Assembly (NCBI GenBank): GCA_013389115.1
Contig: JACADY010000043.1
Coordinates: 17,731-81,730, forward strand
Direction of reading: 5' to 3'
DNA: 64,000 nt
Origin: Alphaproteobacteria bacterium
Lineage (GTDB): Bacteria; Pseudomonadota; Alphaproteobacteria; Micropepsales; Micropepsaceae
Shown piece by piece: positions 4,729 to 4,961 of the stretch. Below the pieces are notes generated by a model, which saw only the letters and a program-made list of their open reading frames with translations, had not been told where the DNA came from and ran no database searches. Each line of letters begins with the position of its first letter. The stretch's first letter is position 1. A program made the position numbers and the translations under genes.

Positions 4729-4757
4729 AGGTGCTTCTTCCACTCCCTAAATGGCCG

Positions 4758-4789
4758 AAAGGCCGCCAGGGCGTCCCCCGGCGGCCTTT
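4758..4789. terminator. Bidirectional Rho-independent terminator
   Basis: Perfect 10-bp stem AAAGGCCGCC...GGCGGCCTTT; serves the GNAT gene (+) and the candidate micro-gene (-). Confidence 0.8.
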
Positions 4790-4831
4790 CCATTGCCTTT
4801 TTCCGCGTCAGCGGTTTTCGCCGTTACCGGC

Positions 4832-4897
4832 CTAGGCGCGGAATCCCTTAACGAGGGTCCAGGCCTTGCGCTCACACGGGGTATGACAATGAGACAC
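4832..4897 (-). CDS. Candidate micro-protein, 21 aa (MSHCHTPCERKAWTLVKGFRA), GTG start
   Basis: Not in ORF track. GTG start at 4897-4895 preceded by GAAAGGAGGTGATCCA; own promoter TTGCAT-N17-TAGTCT (minus strand, 4961-4933); terminator at 4758-4789. Confidence 0.5.
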   Translation of the reverse strand: MSHCHTPCERKAWTLVKGFRA

Positions 4898-4932
4898 TGG
4901 ATCACCTCCTTTCAATTGTTGAAACCGATTCC

Positions 4933-4961
4933 AGACTAGGGCGGTTCCTGCCGCGATGCAA
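4933..4961 (-). promoter_or_regulatory. Predicted promoter of the micro-gene
   Basis: Minus strand TTGCAT (4961-4956), 17-nt spacer, TAGTCT (4938-4933). Confidence 0.45.

Follow-up and report, generated by a model that had tools for sequence, protein, structure and literature searches.

Just upstream of a 21-codon open reading frame on the minus strand of a 64,000-nt stretch of alphaproteobacterial DNA (family Micropepsaceae; hereafter the window) lies a leader complementary over 17 nt to the 3′ tail of 16S rRNA, which raises the question of what so small a unit, and so long a match to the ribosome, are for. A sequence-only reading of the locus had proposed a self-contained micro-gene with its own promoter and terminator, specifying either a highly translated micro-protein or an RNA that binds the anti-Shine-Dalgarno (anti-SD) sequence of the 30S subunit. 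The whole element occupies window positions 4760-4921(-), and all of the components named in that reading can be read directly in the sequence where it had put them. The parts of the element are:

4961-4956, minus strand: TTGCAT of a promoter-like sequence, followed by a 17-nt spacer and TAGTCT at 4938-4933; read in the sequence
about 4922-4926, minus strand: predicted RNA 5′ end, placed from the promoter-like sequence at 4933..4961
4918..4921, minus strand: CAAC box, the 5′ end of the Rfam model; from the Rfam model match
4897..4913, minus strand: extended SD, GAAAGGAGGUGAUCCAG, which complements the whole single-stranded 16S 3′ tail; from the sequence
4832..4897, minus strand: micro-ORF, GTG...TAG, 21 codons, MSHCHTPCERKAWTLVKGFRA, with the TAG stop at 4834-4832
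4897..4903, minus strand: 5′ strand of helix H1, GAUCCAG (SD flank and start-codon base); from covariation
4856..4862, minus strand: 3′ strand of helix H1, CUGGACC, inside the ORF; from covariation, with 5 contiguous pairs in this genome
4885..4891, minus strand: 5′ strand of helix P1, CAUUGUC (codons 3-5); from the Rfam model, covariation and fold
4791..4797, minus strand: 3′ strand of helix P1, GGCAAUG, directly before the terminator hairpin; from the Rfam model, covariation and fold
4758..4789, minus strand: terminator-like hairpin with a GGCCGCC/GGCGGCC core; from the sequence and fold

The view of a self-contained unit with a super-strong SD and genuine start and stop codons is borne out, and its conservation is class-wide. 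Among relatives the −35/−10-like sequences are weakly conserved at a similar distance, and CAAC is found mostly about 7-12 nt upstream of AGGAGG. The proposed terminator stands in part: the 10-bp stem is present as an inverted repeat (4789-4780 / 4767-4758), but no U-run follows it on the minus strand, which has UUU only at the stem end. On the plus strand (window 4758-4799) the same hairpin is followed by CCATTGCCTTTTT, and it may also be usable as a terminator for the convergent clpS-clpA-GNAT side. The window RNA folds with z = -5.2, and the predicted fold contains P1, without H1.

The 17-nt match, GAAAGGAGGTGATCCAG at 4913-4897(-), ends on the first G of the GTG start (4897-4895). The host MAG, which is incomplete, has no 16S gene, and the sole CTGGATCACCTCCTTTC in it is the micro-gene locus itself. 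However, GGCTGGATCACCTCCTTTC is present in two genomes of the same family, and because the stretch read in one of these is the 16S 3′ end (...CCTGCGGCTGGATCACCTCCTTTCTAAGG), the proposed complement is right. In the standard rRNA fold helix 45 ends at ...GCGGCT, so that GAAAGGAGGTGATCC spans essentially the whole single-stranded 16S tail. The motif occurs otherwise once in the host genome, as a 1-mismatch site. The predicted duplex between the leader and the 16S tail reaches -35 kcal/mol with flanks included, relative to -9 to -20 for the shorter SDs tried; moreover, an SD of any kind precedes only 24.6% of Caulobacter genes (PMC4117421), which makes that of this element exceptional. A 17-nt identity to the 16S complement could also be the trace of a decayed or antisense 16S rRNA fragment, an origin raised in the sequence-only reading, and this can be dismissed with near certainty. 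The match stops at 17 nt, where 16S goes on with GGC, there is no 16S similarity beyond the 3′ tail, the Rfam search reported no rRNA in the window, and the element is conserved as a unit of its own.

The peptide had not been recognised from the sequence, yet the element belongs to a described family. Against Rfam RF01867 (CC2171, a Caulobacter sRNA), window 4760-4921(-) aligns over model positions 1-159 of 159 and scores 78.1 bits, the cut-off being 75 (E 2.6e-14 over the window). The micro-gene is real, and is a member of the known sRNA family CC2171. A literature search found no paper on CC2171 function, and one for MSHCH matched only unrelated text. At a threshold of E up to 0.001 the model gives matches in 26 of 41 relatives and in 85 of the 387 genomes taken from the class; a few weak ones, which lack the SD (L025, L028, L029), are taken as false. 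Of the same 387 genomes, 78 contain the DNA motif AGGAGGTGATCNNRTGTC and none contains it reversed which, together with the Rfam score and the fold z, shows that the element is not a chance occurrence. In a sample of the phylum the motif was found in 28 of 51 Alphaproteobacteria vs 5 of 149 other Proteobacteria, the latter five having spacers (AT, TG) untypical of the family, and in a contig scan with at least 120 motif stretches, all titles naming a lineage below phylum were alphaproteobacterial.

Relatives retain a near-complete complement to the 16S tail, an ATG or GTG start, a terminator-like hairpin and, almost always, an ORF of 14-36 codons, usually in one copy per genome. Invariance of the motif among relatives found by the motif is by construction, whereas the set found by the covariance model is independent of it; the extended SD is near-invariant in that set also, and true members in which the exact string is missing still have GAAAGGAGGTG, GAUC being replaced by GGUC or GACC. 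The hairpin is present in 167 of 174 relatives by a loose criterion: of 12 composition-shuffled controls per clade, 4-7 satisfy it as well. The Bradyrhizobium, Sphingomonadales and Rhodobacteraceae forms are missed by the RF01867 model at its cut-off.

Comparison of the micro-ORFs shows that start, frame and stop are conserved, and that the peptide mostly is not. ORF length is 14 codons for Bradyrhizobium, 18 for Rhodobacteraceae and almost all Sphingomonadales, and 20-26 for the MSHC group to which the window belongs; the MSSD and MSSE groups mostly have 22-26, other members have as many as 36, and two exceptional ORFs have 56 and 59. In six clades all copies lie within 14-36 codons, vs about 25% of first-order shuffles. 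The Rhodobacteraceae stop at codon 18 in 18 of 18 cases using TGA, TAG and TAA, with no TGG (P 0.001), and in the MSHC group 38 of 45 sequences share a single phase for the distance from the start to the H1 partner (P 2e-12, with relatedness not yet allowed for), so that insertions and deletions keep the frame. Synonymous-biased conservation, proposed earlier as a check, was not found: most clades have omega values of 0.77-1.5 or higher, MSSE at 0.52 (nine sequences) being the exception, and in the clades compared changes are not in excess at third positions. An N-terminal MS-H/S motif is shared, peptides are unalike between orders with motifs that do not carry over, and the micro-peptide has no match in Pfam or NCBIfam.

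Such residues as are conserved are explained mostly by RNA helices. In the MSHC group the conserved Trp codon is the end of CUGG, and the preceding codon ends in C in 43 of 46 sequences vs 35% of other codons; CUGG is also found in other reading frames. This strand pairs with CCAG, which takes in the first base of GTG, and partners follow the spacer as CCAG-CTGG (39/47), CCTG-CAGG (4/6), CCGA-TCGG (14/17) and CCAA-TTGG (7/15). Class-wide, spacer and partner agree in 70 of 100 dereplicated sequences vs 38.5±4.1 when permuted, with none of 5000 permutations as high, the permutation tests leaving relatedness partly in. We regard this spacer-specific test as decisive relative to a generic search for downstream SD-complementary stretches, which gave a clear signal in Rhodobacteraceae, MSSD and Bradyrhizobium alone. 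In a 28-sequence alignment, 86.5% of the cells in H1, P1 (CAUUGUC/GACAAUG) and P1b (CCGCGGUC/GACCGCGG) are paired vs 25-46% when the strands are slid, and the three helices have 20 double-changed cells vs 8.2±2.4 when shuffled. The micro-protein proposed from the sequence (Cys-x3-Cys, basic C-terminus) is thus disfavoured, both by omega values that in most clades lie close to 1 or higher and by the coincidence of conserved residues with helices.

P1 links codons 3-5 with the base of the terminator, and H1 crosses both P1 and P1b; since H1 and P1 cross, they must form either a pseudoknot or alternating helices. The consensus of the H1 3′ strand in relatives, CUGGAUC, reads the same as a portion of the 16S tail. 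In Rhodobacteraceae an SD partner, a CACCUCCUU-like strand, is located after the stop. Downstream CACCUCCUU, CAUCUCCUU or CGGAUCACCUCC at Rhodobacteraceae loci such as L064 and L074, and at one of Rhodospirillaceae (L120), resemble internal copies of the 16S anti-SD.

Taken as a whole, these comparisons suggest that ribosomes must bind and translate a tiny frame while the peptide hardly matters. The selection on start, frame and stop, the mostly unselected peptide and the placing of the start site within a covarying helix fit an ORF with a regulatory role, through which the translating ribosome remodels the RNA, and the element is probably an RNA switch that responds to ribosomes, not a new micro-protein gene. 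The best explanation of its observed anatomy, homology, conserved start, frame and stop, largely unconstrained peptide and covarying H1 and P1 is a free-standing, ribosome-gated RNA of roughly 165 nt with a micro-ORF, to which we give a probability of about 0.5. With no ribosome bound, H1 would hold the SD flank and start codon (GAUC-NN-R paired with the strand inside the ORF), and codons 3-5 could pair with the terminator base through P1. The SD would stay partly accessible, giving the 16S tail a toehold, and the tail, having the same letters as the CUGGAUC consensus of the H1 3′ strand, could displace that strand by toehold exchange. The ribosome would then read the 14-36 codon frame, its sequence nearly free and its frame and stop fixed, so that it would always clear and remodel the same RNA segments. 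We infer the toehold displacement and the open and closed states from these sequence relationships, and an output in trans, by base-pairing or RNA turnover, from the finding of no conserved gene downstream on the same transcript. Several points stand against a gated RNA: the predicted fold of the window RNA is without H1, H1 has only 5 contiguous pairs here, H1 and P1 cross, permutation removes relatedness only in part, Rhodobacteraceae have an SD partner after the stop, and omega in MSSE is about 0.5 (9 sequences). A broader proposal is tentative, and on balance we doubt it: a class-wide, trans-acting sensor of ribosome availability, in which the 16S tail would be the input strand in toehold exchange with the same-letter internal strand, and translation of a sequence-neutral ORF would set the state of an RNA that then acts on other transcripts.

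Among the alternatives, a functional micro-protein of 14-36 aa, with RNA structure only tuning its expression, is unlikely, though it would account for the conserved start, frame and stop, the strong SD, the shared MS-H/S motif and the low omega of MSSE. Ribosome profiling in Caulobacter also showed two formerly predicted ncRNAs, unnamed in the main text, to be translated (PMC4117421). It fits poorly with the omega values of the other clades and their lack of third-position excess, with peptides that are unalike between orders and absent from Pfam and NCBIfam, and with conserved residues that track the helices. Somewhat less likely again is an RNA whose 15-17 nt complement sequesters free 30S subunits and dampens initiation globally, which would follow from the coverage of the whole single-stranded tail, the strength of the predicted duplex against other SDs and the scarcity of SDs in Caulobacter (PMC4117421). 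A sponge, however, could do without a conserved frame, a conserved stop or a start-codon helix, and there is usually one copy per genome. The earlier suggestion of an RNA binding the 30S anti-SD is therefore compatible with the near-invariant complement, but as pure titration it leaves the conserved frame and stop unexplained.

It is improbable that the element is an ordinary trans-acting sRNA with an incidental ORF. Its filing as an sRNA in Rfam, stable fold and terminator hairpin would all be expected of one, but not its frame-keeping indels, fixed ORF length and exchange of stop codons. The least credible of these four is a leader or attenuator of a downstream gene, for which the architectural resemblance to the Sinorhizobium meliloti duf1127_1 uORF leader (PMC12218461) argues. 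The window neighbours are HIT and GNAT, of which the downstream gene, GNAT, is convergent; those of relatives differ and include a Vut_1 transporter, a class IV aminotransferase, acetyl-CoA synthetase, LysR, RNase R-like and others, in a rough survey with ORFs called by a simple rule. No conserved same-strand downstream gene was found in the window or these relatives, and a motif scan near 178 loci gave no DUF1127-like ORF and one unrelated match. The differing neighbours and lack of DUF1127 adjacency, together with the element's own terminator hairpin, argue against a leader.

The proposed ribosome-gated RNA has its closest tested precedent, by analogy of logic, in that same duf1127_1 leader. 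Its transcript starts about 30 nt before a short ORF, a 29-aa uORF whose ribosome binding site is hairpinned with early codons; the leader depends on translation of at least 14 codons but not on the peptide, senses ribosome availability and appears also as an sRNA (PMC12218461). For the element here, a start site hairpinned with early codons and a role for the RNA rather than the peptide are suggested by comparison of relatives. The S. meliloti leader, however, acts by cis attenuation, presumably through Rho, of a DUF1127 gene and without an intrinsic terminator, whereas the element described here is stand-alone, has a terminator hairpin and no DUF1127 neighbour that we found; the likeness is one of architecture and logic. 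The element matches the full CC2171 model above its cut-off and shares with it the 5′ motif, the P1 helix and a terminator hairpin, but the family is filed as an sRNA, and the conserved ORF, full 16S-tail complement as SD, crossing H1 and class-wide spread go further. In Staphylococcus aureus SD pairing is extended toward the start codon by bases after GGAGG and is used with weak start codons (PMC13009471); there it amounts to two extra pairs in many mRNAs, and here to about 15-17 pairs in one RNA with an internal competitor strand. The dual-function rnTrpL/peTrpL of S. meliloti is likewise a small alphaproteobacterial RNA, with a 14-aa ORF, but is a leaderless trp attenuator with a functional peptide and no super-SD (PMC10117765).

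What is new here is the conserved start, frame and stop largely without peptide constraint, the covarying H1 that crosses P1, and the differing neighbours. An orphan sRNA family can thereby be re-read as an RNA, spread across the class, that conserves its translation but not its peptide and provides a natural example of SD pairing close to the maximum in bacteria that mostly lack SDs. The proposed ribosome sensor, which has no downstream gene, is directly testable. The conserved Trp also cautions that apparent peptide motifs can be RNA helices.

Several further copies and matches were noted. The same super-SD precedes an ORF of 56-59 aa (MSHGASPVVAALFGLAALLTAG...) in L128, from Azospirillum sp. 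B21, and in a similar copy, L178; this ORF resembles a membrane or signal peptide and may be a genuine small protein that starts here. Four small (1.4-Mb) genomes of one family, f8 (G031, G165, G263, G343), have AGGAGGTGATCTGATGTC matches that are possibly the SD of an ordinary gene or a divergent copy. In Inquilinus limosus, L112:7753-7804 has an Rfam match to whalefall-1 RNA above the cut-off.
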